Source: a virus. From it: a stretch of DNA of 26,969 bases. The notes beneath the pieces were generated by a model. That model was not told the DNA's origin. It saw nothing but the letters and a program-made list of their open reading frames with translations, and searched no databases. Position numbers and translations under genes: made by a program. Below, piece after piece: positions 135 to 26,969 of this stretch (positions are counted from its first letter, which is position 1; the number at the start of each line of letters is the position of its first letter). The DNA lies in the IMG/VR virus record IMGVR_UViG_3300032322_001453, positions 1 to 26,969 of that record. One strand, 5' to 3'.

Positions 135-674
135 ATGGCCCTGACGCAGATCCAACTGGCGAAGGCGCTCGACGCCAACCAGACGAGCGTGTCTCTCTGG
201 AAGGCGCAGGGGATGCCAACGGACTCGGTGGACGCGGCGAGGGCATGGATGGCCGCGAACATTCGCCGCCGCAAGTCGGGCAAGGTGGCCGCGCCAACGA
301 CCAGCACCAACCCGGCGCTGGGGCCGAAGGCGAGACTCGACCGGGCGGCGGAGGGGGAGATTCGCCATTACGAATTGTGGAAGGCGGCAGCGAACTCGGA
401 GGAGGCCAACAGCCGAACCGTGGCCGAACTGGCCGGCGCGTGGCGCGACAGCCGAAAGGCCGTGGCTCAAGCCGAGCAGGAGTTGGGGCAATTCCTGTCG
501 ATGACCAAGGCGACACTCAACAAGGCGGAGACGGTTGCGGCGATCCGTGGGCTGATCTCGGCAATGGTTCAGGATTTTTCGACATTTCCGTGGGGAGAGC
601 AGGCGACCTCGATGCTACGGAAGCACTTAGCGACCCTGCCGCCGTCCTTGTCCGAGGCGACCGCGAAGGGTTAG
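135..674 (+). CDS. Terminase small subunit (Nu1/HTH-like)
   Basis: Predicted small terminase, the DNA-recognition partner that brings the packaging motor to cos/pac DNA. The N-terminus (about residues 1-45) reads as a helix-turn-helix of the Nu1 type (LTQIQLAKALDANQTSVSLW), followed by a basic linker (RRRKSGK) and a helical middle rich in Ala, Glu and Arg (about 65-115) suited to oligomerisation. At 179 aa it matches lambda Nu1 (181 aa). It lies directly before the large terminase, whose frame overlaps its 3' end, as in lambda. ATG 135 is chosen over ATG 128 because ATG 128 opens a different frame whose product is Gly/Arg/Gln-rich low complexity. The assignment rests on the HTH, the size and the position; no Shine-Dalgarno site is visible. 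Confidence 0.75.
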   Translation: MALTQIQLAKALDANQTSVSLWKAQGMPTDSVDAARAWMAANIRRRKSGKVAAPTTSTNPALGPKARLDRAAEGEIRHYELWKAAANSEEANSRTVAELAGAWRDSRKAVAQAEQELGQFLSMTKATLNKAETVAAIRGLISAMVQDFSTFPWGEQATSMLRKHLATLPPSLSEATAKG

Positions 675-2374
675 CCGAAGCGTGGGCCGCAGGGCACGAG
701 GTAACACTGACGCCGCCGAAGCCAGGTGTGGTGGCGTGGGCCGAGTCGAATCTGAAGCTCTCCGAGCGCATAACCAACAAGCCGGGGAGTTATCTGACCC
801 AGCGCACTCCGTATGTCCGCGAAGTGTTGGAGTGCTTTGCGGACGAGCGGGTGCGGCGGCTTGCCTTGGTGTGGGGCGCTCAGACGAGCAAGACCACGGC
901 CATCATCGTGGGCATGGCCTACAAGCTGGACGTAAATCCCGCCCCGTGTCTTTGGGTTATGCCTTCGACGCACTTGGCGCGGTCATTCTCCGAGACGCGA
1001 TGGATGCCGCTCATAGATCAGAACCCGACCTTGGCGCGGCACAAGCAGGCCGACCCTGACAAGTATCGACTCCTTGAACAGCACTTTGACCGCATGAGCG
1101 TGTGGTTCACGGGCAGCAACTCGCCGGCCTCACTTTCCTCGCGCTCGATTGCCGCTCTGTGCATGGACGAATTGGACAAGTTCCCAGCGAAGGGCGGCAA
1201 AGAGTCCGCGCCGCTGCAACTTGCCGAGGCCCGCGTGGCGACTTACCCGAAACACATCATCGTAACGACCTCGACCCCAACCTACGAAGACGGGGCAATT
1301 TGGACGGAATGGGTCAAGGGCGATCAACGCAAATACTTCGTGCCCTGCCTTGGGTGCGAGGAATCTTGGGCCCTGGAATGGGAACACATCCGATGGGACG
1401 AGACGGCCAAACAGGACGAGGGATGGGACATGACCAAGGTGGCCGACACGGCGCGCTGCGTCTGTCCTGCCTGCGGCCACGCGCACGCGGAAAACGACAA
1501 GCCTTTGATGCTAGAGCGTGGGGAGTGGCGGGCGACCGAGCTTGCCGCCGAGCCAGGGCGGCGAAGCTATCACCTTTCCTCGCTTTATGCGCCTTGGCGA
1601 AAGTGGTCTGACTTGGCCGTAAAGTTTCTACAAGACCGCGATGCGCCGGGAGGGCTTCAAGACTTCAACAACCGCGAACTGGCCCTGCCGTGGAAACCTG
1701 ACGGGGCGCTTATCACTACGCAAATGATCCGTGACCGCGTAGACGCCTCACCACGTTACACGATGGGGGCCGCGCCCGAAGGAAAGGTGATCGGGCGGCT
1801 TATGTCCATCGACGTTCAGCAGACCGAGATGTGGTGGATCGTCCGCGAGCTCCATGAAGACGGTAGCAGCTACCTCCTCGATTACGGGGCGATGGTCGGA
1901 TGGGATGGCGTGATGGACAAGTTCCGCCATTACAAATGCTATCGCGGCATCGTGGACGCAGGCTACGCGGCCAAGACCCCGGCAGGCGTCTACGACTTTG
2001 TTGCCAGGTCGGGTGGGTTATTTGTCGCGGCCAAAGGGCGCACCGTCAGCCAGGGATTGCGCGAGCCCTACAAGTTCCAGCAAATCGTGTCGGGCGGCTC
2101 GGTCCTGTGGGCGGTGCAATTCGACGCGCACTTTTGGCAGGCAAGACTGTATCACGACATCCTGCGCGACGGGCGTGGCCGGTGGCATCTGCCGCGAGAC
2201 ATTGCAAAAGACTACGTTGGGCAGCTTCAAGGCGAGGCACTGATTGAGAAAGACGGCGAGGCAAAGTGGCAAAGGCTGGGGCCGAACCACTTGGCCGACT
2301 GCGAAAAGATGGCCCTCGTTCTGGTCGACTCCATCGTGGCGCAATGGCGGTCAACCAACGCGCCAACAGAGTAA
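590..2374 (+). CDS. Terminase large subunit, GpA family
   Basis: ATP-driven packaging motor with a C-terminal nuclease that cuts concatemeric phage DNA into the prohead. Numbered from GTG 590 (594 aa): Walker A-like GAQTSKTT near residue 95, Walker B ALCMDELDKF near 188, a Cys pair set (CLGC near 253, CVCPACGH near 290) forming a probable zinc knuckle, and nuclease acidic residues in SIDVQ (about 407), VDAGY (about 454) and DCEKM (about 570). The LTPPKPG...WAESNLKLSE stretch is the usual GpA N-terminus. The reading frame stays open back to ATG 128, but that 154-residue extension is low complexity and fully overlaps the small subunit. GTG 590 is the last in-frame start that keeps the conserved N-terminus; it overlaps the small subunit by 85 bases. 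The family call is firm; the start is uncertain. Confidence 0.9.
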   Translation: MGRAGDLDATEALSDPAAVLVRGDREGLAEAWAAGHEVTLTPPKPGVVAWAESNLKLSERITNKPGSYLTQRTPYVREVLECFADERVRRLALVWGAQTSKTTAIIVGMAYKLDVNPAPCLWVMPSTHLARSFSETRWMPLIDQNPTLARHKQADPDKYRLLEQHFDRMSVWFTGSNSPASLSSRSIAALCMDELDKFPAKGGKESAPLQLAEARVATYPKHIIVTTSTPTYEDGAIWTEWVKGDQRKYFVPCLGCEESWALEWEHIRWDETAKQDEGWDMTKVADTARCVCPACGHAHAENDKPLMLERGEWRATELAAEPGRRSYHLSSLYAPWRKWSDLAVKFLQDRDAPGGLQDFNNRELALPWKPDGALITTQMIRDRVDASPRYTMGAAPEGKVIGRLMSIDVQQTEMWWIVRELHEDGSSYLLDYGAMVGWDGVMDKFRHYKCYRGIVDAGYAAKTPAGVYDFVARSGGLFVAAKGRTVSQGLREPYKFQQIVSGGSVLWAVQFDAHFWQARLYHDILRDGRGRWHLPRDIAKDYVGQLQGEALIEKDGEAKWQRLGPNHLADCEKMALVLVDSIVAQWRSTNAPTE

Positions 2375-6470: not shown

Positions 6471-8192
6471 GTGGCAAAGATTCATCTCGGCATCATAGTG
6501 GGCAACGAGGAGGCGCTTATCGGGCGCTTCTTGGACTCGTTCCAGCCTCACGTTGATTCTGTTTCGGTTGTCCGCGCCATCGGAAACCAATCGCCAGACC
6601 GAACGCTCGACATCGCCAAGGAGCGCGGCTGCATCACCGCCGAGTATTGGAACGCGCCCGATAGGCAATGGGAGCACGTCGATAACTTCGCCGCCGCCCG
6701 CAACCAGACCTTTGCCCTGGCCCCCGAAGGCACGGACTTCCTCATGTGGGCCGATTGCGATGATTTGCTAGGTGACAGTGGCGCGGCGGTGCTCCGACTC
6801 CTTAGAGACGGCAAAGATCCGCAGGCAGACGTGCTTTACGCGCCGTATGTGACCAATGCCAGCGGCAGCTACGCGCGCCGCGTTCGACTTCTCAAGGCAT
6901 CGGCCTTCGACAAGTGGATCAACGCTGTCCACGAAGACATCGAGCACAAGCCTGGCAGCAAGCTGACGTGGGCGCACGAGCTTCAAGTCATTCACCTTCC
7001 AGCCAACAACAAGCGCAACAGCGTGGTCCGCAACCGCCGCATCCTTGAAGCCATCCCCGAAACCGAGCGCACAGGCCGCGAGTGGTGGTTTCTTTTCCGC
7101 GAATGCGAGACGCAAGAAGACATACCAAAAGCCATGCAAGCCGCTGTCATCGCCACAGGCTGCGACGATTTGGGCGACGAAGAAAAGTTTGTCGCCTATC
7201 AAACCATAGGGCGATGGCTCAAAGATGTGGACGAAGCCGAGCGTCCGCTACTAGAGGCCGTCCGACTCATGCCGCACCGCCGCGAGGGCTACGCCGAGCT
7301 TGCCAAGGTTCACCTGGCGCGCGGCAGCGCGAGCAAAGCCTTGGCCTATGTAAACGCAATGGAGGCCCAGCCGCAGCCCGAGGAGGCAAGCTGGACGCAC
7401 GACGCCTCGCTCTACGGCTGGCGAGCGCACGACTTGAAATGCTTGGCCTTGGCAAAAGCAGGGCAGACCAAAGAATCTGAGCGCCTCCGCAAAGATTGGC
7501 TCAAACGCTACAAGCCGCGCATTGCCGTGGGCCACCCGGCGGGCCGAGGGGCCAAAGACATTGAGGTCCGCAAGATGTGGCTTGAACGCGCCGCGCAGCC
7601 CGAGCGCGTAGCCTATTATTTTGGCATCTGCGAGTCGGACAAAGAGATCGTTGAGGAATTGCAGCACTACCCGCACGGCATGGCGCAAGCGGTGCCAGAG
7701 GGCTACAGCAGCGCCGTGGCAAATTACAACGCCGCCGCCCGCGCGGCTACAGCATCGGGCGCTCGAATCTTCATCATGGCGCAAAGTGACGTGTATCCGC
7801 CGCACGGTTGGGACGAACAAATTGTGCAGGCCATGAAGCCGCACATGGACAAGCCGACAGTGCTGCACGTTTCGGACGGCTTCGACAAACCTGACCAAAA
7901 GCTCATGACCATAATGACCTTCAACTGGCGGTGGTGGCTTGGCCGCGATTGGTTGCTCTGTCCCGAATACGACGGCTACTGGAGCGACACCGAGTTCAGC
8001 TTCCGCGCCTACCGTGACGGCGTAGTAGAGGACGCGCGGCACATTCAGTTCTACCACGACCATCCTCTCTTTACCAAAGCCGCCACGGACGAGTGCTACC
8101 GCCGGCAACAGAATCCCGAGGCTAACGAGCGCGGCAAGGCCGTCTTCAAGCGCCGCAACCCTGACGCCGTGGCCGAGGGCTGGGTGCCATGA
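6471..8192 (+). CDS. Large glycosyltransferase: GT2-like, TPR-like, second GT-like domain
   Basis: A 573-aa sugar transferase candidate. The N-terminal domain (about 1-190) is GT-A/GT2-like: HLGIIVGNEEALIGRFLDS start, then FLMWADCDD with a DxD-type metal site (D95, D97), and a VHEDIEH segment. A middle helical region (about 200-345) has TPR-like pairs (AEELAKVHLARGSASKALAYV type). The C-terminal part (about 375-573) looks like a second GT-A fold, with IFIMAQSDVYPPHGWDEQI (S439-D440) and YWSDTEFSFRAYRDG (503-517). The start is GTG 6471, just after the terminator; no Shine-Dalgarno site is seen. It ends in an ATGA overlap with the next gene. Enzymes like this within virion genes may decorate capsid or tail proteins, or modify host surface glycans; the substrate is not deducible. 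Confidence 0.8.
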   Translation: MAKIHLGIIVGNEEALIGRFLDSFQPHVDSVSVVRAIGNQSPDRTLDIAKERGCITAEYWNAPDRQWEHVDNFAAARNQTFALAPEGTDFLMWADCDDLLGDSGAAVLRLLRDGKDPQADVLYAPYVTNASGSYARRVRLLKASAFDKWINAVHEDIEHKPGSKLTWAHELQVIHLPANNKRNSVVRNRRILEAIPETERTGREWWFLFRECETQEDIPKAMQAAVIATGCDDLGDEEKFVAYQTIGRWLKDVDEAERPLLEAVRLMPHRREGYAELAKVHLARGSASKALAYVNAMEAQPQPEEASWTHDASLYGWRAHDLKCLALAKAGQTKESERLRKDWLKRYKPRIAVGHPAGRGAKDIEVRKMWLERAAQPERVAYYFGICESDKEIVEELQHYPHGMAQAVPEGYSSAVANYNAAARAATASGARIFIMAQSDVYPPHGWDEQIVQAMKPHMDKPTVLHVSDGFDKPDQKLMTIMTFNWRWWLGRDWLLCPEYDGYWSDTEFSFRAYRDGVVEDARHIQFYHDHPLFTKAATDECYRRQQNPEANERGKAVFKRRNPDAVAEGWVP

Positions 8193-23307: not shown

Positions 23308-23444
23308 TGCGCCTCATTCTTTTGGTGGCGCTGGCGTTTTGCCTCACCGGCTGCGCGGGGTGGAAACTTGGCGGCGGCTACGATTTCGACTCAAAGCAGT
23401 TTTTCTTCAACTTAGAAAAGCCGCTTAACGGATTCGACAAGTGA
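23307..23444 (+). CDS. Small lipoprotein, probable outer-membrane spanin (Rz1-like)
   Basis: A 45-aa protein with a lipoprotein signal peptide: MRLILLVALAFCLTGC, with lipobox LTGC and Cys16 as the lipidation site. The mature part is only 30 residues (AGWKLGGGYDFDSKQFFFNLEKPLNGFDK). Position between holin and endolysin fits an Rz1-type outer-membrane spanin, though no inner-membrane Rz partner is recognisable nearby and the mature part is not proline-rich as in many Rz1 proteins. It overlaps the holin stop by one base (TAATG) and is followed by GTGA overlap. Its presence argues for a two-membrane host. Confidence 0.65.
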   Translation: MRLILLVALAFCLTGCAGWKLGGGYDFDSKQFFFNLEKPLNGFDK

Positions 23445-24004
23445 ACTGGCTGAAAAAATGCCTGCTGTCGTTTCGCTCTTTAATGGGGTCAAAGGTTGGC
23501 CGTCTGCCGACCTCGCCAAGCTCCTCGGACTTGTCCACGAAGAACTTCACAACCGCGCCGAACACCACCGCAAAGGCGGAGGCGTCGAAGCCGAGCTTAC
23601 AAAGCGAAGCCAAAGCAAGCGGGTGGGTGGCCGATCCGAGAAGTGAGAAGAATTTGGCAACGGTGCAGCCGCAGTTGCAGAAGCTAGGCCGTGAGCTTTT
23701 GCGCCGTCTCGCCGCCGAGGGGCTGACGTTCAAAGTCATCCAAGGCCGCAGGACACCCGCAGAACAGGCCGCGCTCTACGCCAAGGGTCGCACCGCCCCG
23801 GGGCCACAAGTCACATGGACGCTCAAGTCCCGACACCTCACAGGCCGCGCCATCGACCTCGCTTTATTCAACGGCAAAAATGTGGTCTGGGAATCGAAGC
23901 ACTACAGCAGGGCAGGGGAGATTGGCGAGGAGTTAGGGCTTGTCTGGGGCGGCAGATGGAAGGGCGGCAAGACCGACAAGCCGCACTTTGAGTTGCCAGC
24001 CTAA
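23441..24004 (+). CDS. Endolysin, M15 peptidase (L-Ala-D-Glu type)
   Basis: Cell-wall peptidase that ends infection by cutting peptidoglycan stem peptides. The M15 zinc site is visible: SRHLTGRAID with His132 and Asp139, and PHFEL with His182; an acidic residue near 158-164 (AGEIGEEL) may be the catalytic acid. The fold core begins near residue 75. An N-terminal ~70-residue stretch is low complexity (Ser/Thr/Ala/Lys-rich) and could be a linker after a short basic helix (NWLKKCLLSFRSLM). GTG 23441 overlaps the lipoprotein stop (GTGA). No signal peptide, so release should depend on the holin. Confidence 0.85.
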   Translation: MNWLKKCLLSFRSLMGSKVGRLPTSPSSSDLSTKNFTTAPNTTAKAEASKPSLQSEAKASGWVADPRSEKNLATVQPQLQKLGRELLRRLAAEGLTFKVIQGRRTPAEQAALYAKGRTAPGPQVTWTLKSRHLTGRAIDLALFNGKNVVWESKHYSRAGEIGEELGLVWGGRWKGGKTDKPHFELPA

Positions 24005-24054: not shown

Positions 24055-24183
24055 CACCGAATCCCCGAAAATGGCATTGTCATTGGCCCTTACGGCGGCA
24101 TCGGCTTCATCCCGCGCAACACTCCGAGGCGAACTGCGGTTCGTTTCAGCGTGCTGCGTTGGTTTGTGAAGCTGTTTGCCTAG
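24052..24183 (+). CDS. Small basic hypothetical protein, 43 aa
   Basis: Starts MHRIPENGIVIGPYGGIGFIP, then a basic stretch (RNTPRRTAVRFSV) and a short amphipathic C-terminus (LRWFVKLFA). The frame is short, but its Shine-Dalgarno site is strong. It converges with the minus-strand membrane gene; the two TAG stops share the palindrome CTAG (24180-24183). No function is evident. Confidence 0.5.
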   Translation: MHRIPENGIVIGPYGGIGFIPRNTPRRTAVRFSVLRWFVKLFA

Positions 24184-24326
24184 CGCCAAGTCAGCCACAG
24201 GAAGCCGACATTTGCCAGGGCATACCCGCCAAAGGCCACGGCCATCGGCCCGTTGCCGTCGCGTAGGAAGCCTAGCGCCGTGAGCACATAAAGCCCGGTG
24301 CAGGCTAGGAGCGGCCAGAAGGTCAT
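24180..24326 (-). CDS. Small membrane protein, 48 aa
   Basis: Two hydrophobic helices: about 2-19 (TFWPLLACTGLYVLTALG) and 28-46 (MAVAFGGYALANVGFLWLT), with a polar turn (FLRDGNGP) and a C-terminal Arg. ATG 24326-24324 overlaps the stop of the zincin gene (ATGA), so this is the last gene of the minus-strand operon. A longer in-frame start at 24383 lies inside the zincin gene and is less likely. Could be a small holin-like or membrane-anchor protein; no family is recognised. Confidence 0.5.
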   Translation of the reverse strand: MTFWPLLACTGLYVLTALGFLRDGNGPMAVAFGGYALANVGFLWLTWR

Positions 24327-24661
24327 GCTGCCTTGTGCCTGCCGATGGAGATTTTGCCGTCGCAGAATGTGTTGGCCAACCACTCGGCAACCACAGACGC
24401 CACGCGCTCGTTGTCGCGCACATGGGTTTCGTCAACGCATGGCATCGTCGCGTGCGATATTTCATGAACCACGATTCCGAGAAGGTTGTCCTTAATAGCT
24501 TTGGGATGGAAATAAACGATGCGCTTGCGGTAGTCGCAGGACCCTTCGCAAAGCTCTTTGTCTGGTGGTCGCTGCACCTTCACGGTCCACCACTCGCCGT
24601 CCAACTTGAAACGGAAATGTGGGCGCTTCTTTCGCTTGCGTGGTTTAGCTTTGGCGCTCAT
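24323..24661 (-). CDS. HExxH zincin-like metalloprotease, 112 aa
   Basis: A small putative zinc peptidase. After a very basic start (SAKAKPRKRKKRPHFRF) come a Trp/Val-rich strand (EWWTVKVQ), CEGSCDYRKRIVYFHP, and the core helix IVVHEISHATMP with HExxH zinc ligands; a third ligand could be the Glu in DNERVASVVAEWL about 20-30 residues later, as in gluzincins. The basic N-terminus suggests DNA or RNA contact. Phage proteins of this shape are reported in prophage accessory regions (e.g. SprT-like or ImmA-like zincins), but this one does not clearly fit a named family. It overlaps the winged-helix gene upstream by ATGA. Confidence 0.65.
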   Translation of the reverse strand: MSAKAKPRKRKKRPHFRFKLDGEWWTVKVQRPPDKELCEGSCDYRKRIVYFHPKAIKDNLLGIVVHEISHATMPCVDETHVRDNERVASVVAEWLANTFCDGKISIGRHKAA

Positions 24662-24927
24662 TTGAGCAAGCGATAGTGCGGGACGGGGTAAACTCCGCGC
24701 CCGGTCATCACGCGGAAACGGCGCATCTCGGCTTTGCCTTGCCGAACCATATCGGTCATGCGCTTGCTAATCGTTGCATTCGCGCGTCCAGTTTTTTCGC
24801 AAAGCTGCGTCACGGTGAACCAGCCCGGTGGCACTTGCTCGACAGCAACGGAAGACTGCGCTAACGCCGCGCACCAAGCGGCTAGGGATGCGTCGGTCAC
24901 ATTCTTTGCCAACTTTTTGTGACTCAT
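24658..24927 (-). CDS. Winged-helix/HTH protein, 89 aa
   Basis: A small probable DNA-binding protein: MSHKKLAKNVTDASLAAWCAAL start, then PPGWFTVTQLCEKTGRANATISKRMTDMVRQG (a helix-turn-helix with recognition helix ANATISKRMTDMV, about 51-63), and a wing-like C-terminus (RFRVMTGRGVYPVPHYRLL). Such proteins often regulate phage operons. The start is ATG 24927-24925 (ATGA overlap with the phosphoesterase stop). It could autoregulate the operon; no operator was identified. Confidence 0.65.
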   Translation of the reverse strand: MSHKKLAKNVTDASLAAWCAALAQSSVAVEQVPPGWFTVTQLCEKTGRANATISKRMTDMVRQGKAEMRRFRVMTGRGVYPVPHYRLLK

Positions 24928-25664
24928 AGGGGCAGGCGGTAGTGGGGGGAAAGTTGCTCCAAGCGAACGATGCAATGCGTGTCCGTGTATTCGCCCCAGG
25001 CAAACCCGTGGGACCAAGAAAGCGTGCTGCGATTGTTTTTTGCGTAATCCACATCGAGCCGAACCGCGCACCCGGCGTTGTAGCCAGTGAAGGGCTTTTG
25101 CGTCCTCGCCTTCTCCATTGCGACTTTGTGCGTATGCACGAACACACAATTCGAGGACAGCGCCTCCGCTGTGTCTCGGCTGGCCTGCATATTGTAGAGC
25201 GAGCCATGCAGGAAAAGCGTGTCGCCAAGCTGACGGCAGCACTCAGGGCGAAGACCAGCGTAGGGCACAATCTCGGCCTTTAATGCCTTCATCGCATCGG
25301 CCATGCGGGCGATCACGGCCCCGGCGGCATAGCTCACAACGGCGTTGGGCGAATAGGCTAGGCGCGCAAGTCGATCTTCGTGGTTTCCCATGAACCACTT
25401 CGTCACTTCAAGCTCTTGCAAGTAACTCAGCCCCGCGAGCAAATCGTCGGCCATGTCTTGCGCTCTGTCGCCACTGTCTGGGTCGCGCTGCGCCCCGGCC
25501 CGCATGGCGGCAAGGTCTACCGCGTCACCGAGATGCCAGCACTCGTCAGGCTTCCACGCCTTGCGGAACTTTAGGATGGCGTTGGTGGCCTTGGGGTCGG
25601 CCAAGTGGCCGTGAGAACACCCGGAGGCAAGGAACCGTTTCCACTTTCGTGTGATGTTCGCCAC
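24924..25664 (-). CDS. Metallophosphoesterase (calcineurin-like)
   Basis: A 246-aa phosphoesterase candidate, first gene of the minus-strand operon. Motifs in order: CSHGH (motif I; the usual Asp of D-x-H appears to be Cys), HLGDAVD (motif II, GDxxD), MGNHEDR (motif III, GNH[DE]), LFLHGS (motif IV His) and VFVHTHK (motif V, usually GHTH). So four of five metal-ligand motifs are intact. GTG 25664 is chosen over TTG 25685 because a TTGACA-hairpin sits exactly before it and the TTG is part of that hexamer. It could act on nucleotides, RNA or phosphoproteins; no substrate is evident. Confidence 0.75.
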   Translation of the reverse strand: MANITRKWKRFLASGCSHGHLADPKATNAILKFRKAWKPDECWHLGDAVDLAAMRAGAQRDPDSGDRAQDMADDLLAGLSYLQELEVTKWFMGNHEDRLARLAYSPNAVVSYAAGAVIARMADAMKALKAEIVPYAGLRPECCRQLGDTLFLHGSLYNMQASRDTAEALSSNCVFVHTHKVAMEKARTQKPFTGYNAGCAVRLDVDYAKNNRSTLSWSHGFAWGEYTDTHCIVRLEQLSPHYRLPL

Positions 25665-25685
25665 GCATCCCGCAAAGGATGTCAA
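25662..25685 (-). promoter_or_regulatory. TTGACA-hairpin-start element 5 (minus strand)
   Basis: Read on the minus strand: TTGACA (25685-25680), a stem CATCC-TTTGCG-GGATG (25681-25666), C, then GTG (25664-25662) of the phosphoesterase. The hexamer-to-start gap is 15 bases. This copy is on the other strand, in a separate operon, and has no upstream stop to explain the hexamer. Confidence 0.55.
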
Positions 25686-25708
25686 GGCGCATGGCGAGGG
25701 GGATGTGG

Positions 25709-25825: not shown

Positions 25826-25856
25826 TTTTCGACCCCCTCCGCCGGCATTCTGAAAA
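25826..25856. other. Possible attachment core, tRNA 3'-end-like
   Basis: TTTTCGACCCCCTCCGCCGG (from 25826) resembles the T-loop and acceptor 3' side of a tRNA (TTCGAxxCC followed by a pyrimidine/G-rich strand). It lies immediately beyond the 3' end of the integrase gene, where attachment sites often sit, and is flanked by TTTTC and GAAAA. The 5' half of a T-stem is not present, so it is not a complete tRNA. A weak candidate, by pattern only. Confidence 0.25.
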
Positions 25857-26940: not shown

Positions 26941-26969
26941 GTTTTCGCGGGGGGGGGGGGGCGAAAAAC
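26941..26969. other. 13-G run flanked by inverted repeat at window end
   Basis: GTTTTCGC (26941-26948), 13 G (26949-26961), then CGAAAAAC; the last G with the right side reads GCGAAAAAC, an inverted copy of the left arm with one extra A. On either strand this forms a stem with a poly-G loop. It lies just upstream of the integrase start. It may be a real G-quadruplex or regulatory element, or an assembly artefact at a contig end. Confidence 0.4.

Follow-up and report, generated by a model that had tools for sequence, protein, structure and literature searches.

What is encoded by a run of four minus-strand genes lying between the lysis and integration genes of a phage, and what might it do for the phage that carries it? 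The window analysed here, meaning the whole 26,969-bp IMG/VR virus record IMGVR_UViG_3300032322_001453, contains such a run (Table 1); a search of the window for end repeats found none. A preliminary description of this DNA reported a four-gene set linked by ATGA overlaps at 24180-25664, and these coordinates and the three overlaps, which couple the phosphoesterase (PPE), winged-helix (wHTH), zincin and membrane protein genes, are confirmed to the base. The placement between lysis and integrase genes is also borne out, with Pfam and PHROG matches identifying an M15 endolysin and a tyrosine integrase on the two flanks. It is close to certain that the four genes are a genuine, tightly linked and widespread modular phage cassette, although its function can only be addressed with much less assurance.

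Table 1. Features of the window discussed in the text, with the basis of each assignment.
Feature	Position	Strand	Basis
TerS-like, HTH-containing ORF overlapping the TerL ORF start	135-674		By eye; TerL by search
M15 endolysin, convergent with the cassette	23441-24004	+	Peptidase_M15_4, 2.4e-11; phrog_465, 2.6e-34
Membrane protein, 48 aa, two hydrophobic segments	24326-24180	-	Alignment; zincin linkage; membrane-seeded scan
Zincin, basic and minimal, 112 aa, H66-E67-x-x-H70	24661-24323	-	Invariant columns; AF2
wHTH, small winged-helix protein, 89 aa	24927-24658	-	Weak MarR_2 match, E 0.057; slot 2 position with exact ATGA
PPE metallophosphoesterase, 246 aa	25664 (GTG)-24924	-	phrog_221, E 4.6e-12; invariant columns; AF2 fold
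Cassette leader: CTTGACA box (25686-25680) and hairpin including the GTG start codon	25658-25697	-	Fold z-score -3.1
attP core-like 20 bp, reading as a tRNA-Leu 3' end (TTCGACCCCCTCCGCCGGCA)	25828-25847	+	tRNA identity by eye
Tyrosine integrase	26921-25857	-	Pfam Phage_integrase, E 1.2e-7; phrog_1, E 4.7e-27

All four genes show substitutions enriched at codon position 3 when compared with relatives, including the 48-aa membrane gene, for which the values are 0.30, 0.23 and 0.50 at positions 1, 2 and 3. This excess indicates that the four genes, even the smallest, are real and under coding constraint. The set is co-inherited in the same order in relatives, where gene order and ATGA junctions are kept at PPE identities of 38-96%. 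Profile scans with PPE, zincin, and a second phosphoesterase, PPE2, identified ~125 distinct IMG/VR loci with such cassettes, which argues against a chance assembly. The PPE scan gave at least 531 relatives, of which the best 80 were used, and the zincin scan gave 26 viral contigs with the same gene order in nearly all. The overlap between the phosphoesterase and wHTH genes is ATGA in almost all of the ~125 cassettes. The zincin and PPE alignments detected no relative in a scan of 84,980 prokaryote species genomes, and tblastn of the window zincin, the window PPE and a related TM protein against 50,697 phage records returned no match. As the preliminary description had proposed, the set corresponds to no named module: none of the four window proteins reaches the threshold of a family in PADLOC, NCBIfam or Pfam, the best PADLOC value for any cassette protein (E 0.038, against models of defence families) being at chance level. 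The set is described neither in the literature found by searches on the cassette nor in the family libraries searched.

Comparison of these loci reveals three slots. Slot 1 is occupied by PPE or PPE2, and slot 2 by wHTH in nearly all cassettes. Slot 3 contains either a zincin with a two-TM protein or a GNAT acetyltransferase (139-143 aa; Pfam Acetyltransf_1, E 5.8e-11) without the two-TM protein. PPE has been swapped for PPE2 while wHTH was retained, with parsimony requiring at least 11 slot-1 changes on the wHTH tree. For slot 3, the PPE tree calls for no fewer than 17 changes and the wHTH tree for 31. Exchanges between zincin and GNAT number 23 on the wHTH tree against a shuffled-label mean of 28.7 (range 23-31), and 12 on the PPE tree against 13.2 (range 11-14). 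The two enzymes thus alternate almost randomly on both trees. The possibility raised in the preliminary description that the genes occur independently in relatives is realised for PPE and wHTH, since roughly one locus in four has these two without the zincin and membrane gene. It is not realised for the zincin and membrane protein, which are almost never split. Of 91 zincin loci, 90 have a TM gene, against none of 32 GNAT loci, which makes the two-TM protein a near-obligate partner of the zincin.

The main census was seeded by PPE, PPE2 or zincin, and membrane protein and GNAT seeds served as a check on seed bias. With the membrane protein as seed, 75 loci received new numbers, some of them on contigs found before. 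A zincin stands directly upstream in 72 of the 75 and ~70 bp away in another (L254). The remaining two (L240 and L279, in 57-71-kb contigs) have no zincin. These two-TM proteins from large phage contigs lie within L240:2631-3138 and L279:2750-3135, the former after a phrog_858 starvation-inducible regulator-like protein. The GNAT seed gave 80 loci, with wHTH plus PPE or PPE2 present in 44. Outside the cassette, several GNAT relatives adjoin holins or lysozymes without a phosphoesterase, and others directly follow other phosphoesterases (L328-L330, L357 and L373/L374). The L328 enzyme matches Pfam Metallophos (E 7.5e-10), and that of L357 belongs to phrog_704 and has an ATGA overlap with the GNAT gene. 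The identical ORFs of L373 and L374 belong to the phrog_1745 DNA transfer proteins, relatives of which are annotated as T5 A1-like. In MW202647, PPE2 is followed by a wHTH-like protein and then by a protein resembling, by eye, a PD-(D/E)XK nuclease. In a further locus, L061, the GNAT gene precedes an ATGA-coupled gene for a 75-aa protein that appears DUF3310-like by eye.

The phosphoesterase of the window was originally described as having a changed motif I, CSHGH, and this reading is correct. The PPE motifs are C16-S-H18-G (motif I), GD47, GNH95E, H153-G, and H177-T-H179. The Asp of the metallophosphoesterase motif I (D-x-H) is replaced by an invariant Cys throughout the PPE family (C-x-H-G), with Cys16 and His18 invariant in 19 aligned members and conserved in at least 98% of 81. 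D47, N94, H95, H153, H177, and H179, from motifs II-V (GD, GNH, H, GHxH), are likewise invariant in the alignment. As every other ligand is retained, the Cys is probably a metal ligand and not the mark of a dead site. With its invariant C-x-H motif I, the family has an unusual metallophosphoesterase site.

The AF2 model of PPE (pLDDT 78) adopts a metallophosphoesterase fold. Its structural matches, including SapH, SbcD, and YfcE (E 6e-6 to 1e-3; VIA Z 10-12), point to the superfamily level and no more, and the match of the window protein to Pfam Metallophos (E 0.01) is below the cut-off. The GNHE and HG motifs look closer to ApaH and phosphatases than to Mre11, and a 38%-identical relative of PPE from an uncultured phage is annotated as ApaH type. 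By HMM comparison PPE belongs to the same family as the phrog_221 phage metallophosphoesterases (4.6e-12 to 1.9e-19), for example that of Pseudomonas phage Andromeda. The Andromeda protein, however, retains the Asp of motif I and carries an HTH-like domain, recognised by eye, N-terminally on the same chain, whereas the cassette has a separate ATGA-coupled DNA-binding gene and an exchangeable third slot. PPE2 is a different protein, in which SDLH, NGD, HH, and HRH are invariant across 7 diverse members. It has no Pfam or PHROG match and no profile alignment with PPE or T5 A1, and its putative phosphoesterase class rests on motifs. A PHYRL-like C-terminal motif is common to the adjacent PPE (window ~24927-24950) and wHTH (~24661-24680), with PHY found in the last 12 residues of 81/82 PPE, 114/128 wHTH, and 0/49 PPE2 proteins. 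Conservation extends to the PPE tail despite the low confidence of its prediction.

The zincins of the cassettes are of 92, 96, or 107-115 aa, with one of 201 aa, and the two-TM protein that directly follows them is 47-52 aa across cassettes. In the window protein the third zinc ligand is probably E85, based on invariant columns. Its AF2 model (pLDDT 80) has weak structural matches to the minigluzincins selecase and abylysin (Z 3.4-4.1) and to IrrE (Z 2.7). Like the selecase/abylysin, SprT, and IrrE/ImmA minimal zincins, it has the HExxH helix after a small beta sheet. It differs from these in having no sequence family above threshold, a basic N-terminus, and its near-obligate two-TM partner. 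The SprT-like PF10263 profile scores 13.2 bits, under its cut-off of 25.6, and no M78 match was found in Pfam at E <= 1, although another cassette zincin of 96 aa has a weak one (E 0.14). Neither the zincin nor the PPE2 profile has a sequence relative in the PDB at E <= 1. A role for the membrane protein as a lysis component is unlikely, as it follows the zincin in head operons distant from lysis genes. The wHTH was also considered as a small terminase, which was rejected given the separate TerS-like ORF at the start of the TerL ORF.

The stretch between lysis and integrase genes had been taken as the usual site of lysogeny or host-benefit genes. In window-type phages the cassette does adjoin both the integrase and a tRNA-derived attP core, which would put it at the very end of the integrated prophage. 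In relatives the attP-like site holds the 3' part of a tRNA-Ser or a longer one of a tRNA-Leu, with tRNA identity assigned by eye; the relatives also differ in integrase type and orientation. The lysogeny argument is weakened, however, by cassettes inside head operons. In the L003/G004 group the cassette is flanked by a scaffold-like gene and the major head protein gene, and in the L175 group it is upstream of the scaffold and major head genes, in both cases on the same strand. In L205 it lies near replication genes and an integrase. A tblastn census of 131 loci found an integrase nearby in 52 and two types of head gene nearby in 30 and 28 (about 58/131). The cassette is not lysogeny-specific, and the head-operon cassettes of the two groups mean that its position is no sign of a role in lysogeny.

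Upstream of PPE, the slot-1 start codon lies within a hairpin just after a TTGACA box, both in the window and in 53 other leaders. The mean MFE of these 54 leaders is -11.95 kcal/mol, compared with -9.22 kcal/mol for the shuffled leader (sd 0.26), and there is a weak sign of covariation between leader and start region (16/300 swaps). The [TC]TTGACA box occurs shortly upstream of many start codons, in the window at 25680-25686 (-) and at 2784, 4580, 16571, 17629, and 23123 (+). It also stands upstream of start codons in G011, G005, and G010 but is largely missing from the G004 group. In this phage group TTGACA was counted 22 times upstream of starts versus 4 times in equal coding stretches. A cassette-specific operator or promoter was rejected, as the box precedes many genes and stands so near the start that a -10 box would not fit in between. 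It is likewise too near start codons for a -35 box, and it looks like a translation or RNA element.

The closest parallel is found in phage T5. Degradation of host DNA by T5 requires A1, and second-step DNA transfer requires A1 together with A2 (PMC13250531). The A1 orthologues have been classed as calcineurin-like phosphodiesterases (PMC7824862). Among the foreign sequences tried, T5 A1 was the best match to the PPE profile in hhalign (P 1.1e-4 over 151 columns). The Andromeda phrog_221 protein and the A1-like protein of L373 each gave P 5e-4, and 18 controls gave P >= 0.12. The PPE profile is low in diversity, and the A1 match therefore supports kinship, not orthology. The T5 record has A2, a DNA-binding protein, a 65-aa two-TM protein (T5.005), and A1 in succession. 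As in the cassette, a phosphoesterase-superfamily protein is encoded together with small DNA-binding and two-TM proteins. In addition, the A1-like protein of L373 is followed by a GNAT. T5 A1 differs in having an extra N-terminal half that PPE lacks, the motif I of A1-like proteins is apparently D-x-H rather than C-x-H, and no zincin or GNAT was noted among annotated T5 genes adjoining A1. Neither the wHTH profile compared with A2 (P 0.27) nor the cassette membrane protein compared with T5.005 gave detectable homology or sequence similarity. For this reason, working like A1/A2 is meant as an analogy, not as membership.

On this analogy, the cassette may serve host takeover much as A1/A2 do, with accessory enzymes that can be exchanged, a reading that is plausible but falls somewhat short of an even chance. 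Through the wHTH, the phosphoesterase would reach DNA or a host complex bound to DNA; it would attack host nucleic acid or a nucleotide and contribute to host shutdown. The slot-3 enzyme would modify or cleave host proteins, with the zincin version acting at the membrane. More broadly, and tentatively, the cassette could represent a previously undescribed plug-in system by which tailed phages achieve host takeover or counter-defence. The Cys-ligand metallophosphoesterase and its dedicated wHTH adaptor would be the constant core, combined with an effector slot of exchangeable content (zincin and membrane partner, GNAT, possibly a nuclease), assembled repeatedly around different phosphoesterases. 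If this is correct, a widespread unannotated phage cassette becomes testable as a single system and gives a way into the old question of what T5 A1-type phosphoesterases do. The zincin/two-TM pair and the GNAT would be a natural mix-and-match set for finding host targets. A G011 relative encodes a beta-glucosyl-HMC-alpha-glucosyltransferase-like protein (L041:1151-2062; phrog_842, E 4.5e-69). This hints that the phage DNA is modified, and modification could shield it from the phage's own nuclease.

The strongest rival to host takeover is counter-defence, in which the phosphoesterase breaks down an alarm nucleotide and slot 3, as GNAT or as zincin with TM protein, disarms different host defence proteins, its variability reflecting an arms race. 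The exchangeable, near-randomly distributed slot 3 fits this proposal, as do predictions that T5 A1 orthologues of phages act against nucleotides and that SprT-like zincins cleave host proteins (PMC7824862). It is nonetheless somewhat unlikely, since there is no link to a known inhibitor and no defence target is known; PADLOC gave no match either, although it covers defence and not anti-defence families. Expression from the prophage for lysogenic conversion, superinfection exclusion or anti-phage defence, with the membrane protein or zincin blocking incoming phages, would suit a cassette beside attP, at the prophage end and on the strand opposite the late genes. This is rendered improbable by the head-gene neighbourhoods, two of which were inspected and place the cassette inside the operon on the same strand, and by the loci that lack the zincin and TM gene.

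A passive moron cluster, in which the genes stay together but share no biochemical function, is about equally improbable. Slots recombine freely and contexts differ widely, as such a cluster predicts, but the ATGA coupling survives the replacements, the zincin-TM linkage is nearly complete, and the adjacency of phosphoesterase and GNAT recurs with several phosphoesterase subfamilies. The preliminary description also saw a loose resemblance to ImmA/ImmR, in which HTH and zincin genes are neighbours as in the cassette and the zincin would cleave the wHTH repressor to induce the prophage. No Xre repressor domain was found, nor an M78 match for the window zincin, and the cassette zincin is replaceable: wHTH stays in the 32 loci where GNAT takes the place of the zincin. 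The near-random exchange on the wHTH tree, where wHTH lineage and zincin have almost no co-distribution, indicates that wHTH is independent of the zincin and argues against a protease-repressor switch. The resemblance was therefore dismissed on the exchange statistics, and such a switch is highly improbable. Host takeover by analogy with A1/A2 is the preferred reading.

Elsewhere in the window, ARAGORN calls a tRNA-Thr(CGT) at 775-872 (+), within the terminase ORF, and this call could be a false positive. The window closes at 26945-26969 with a G run (a C run on the minus strand) that has the short inverted repeat GTTTTTCGC/GCGAAAAC at its flanks and is perhaps an artefact of the assembly end. 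Downstream of the portal gene, positions 6471-8192 (+) encode a 573-aa glycosyltransferase-like ORF (phrog_13126, E 1.7e-18).
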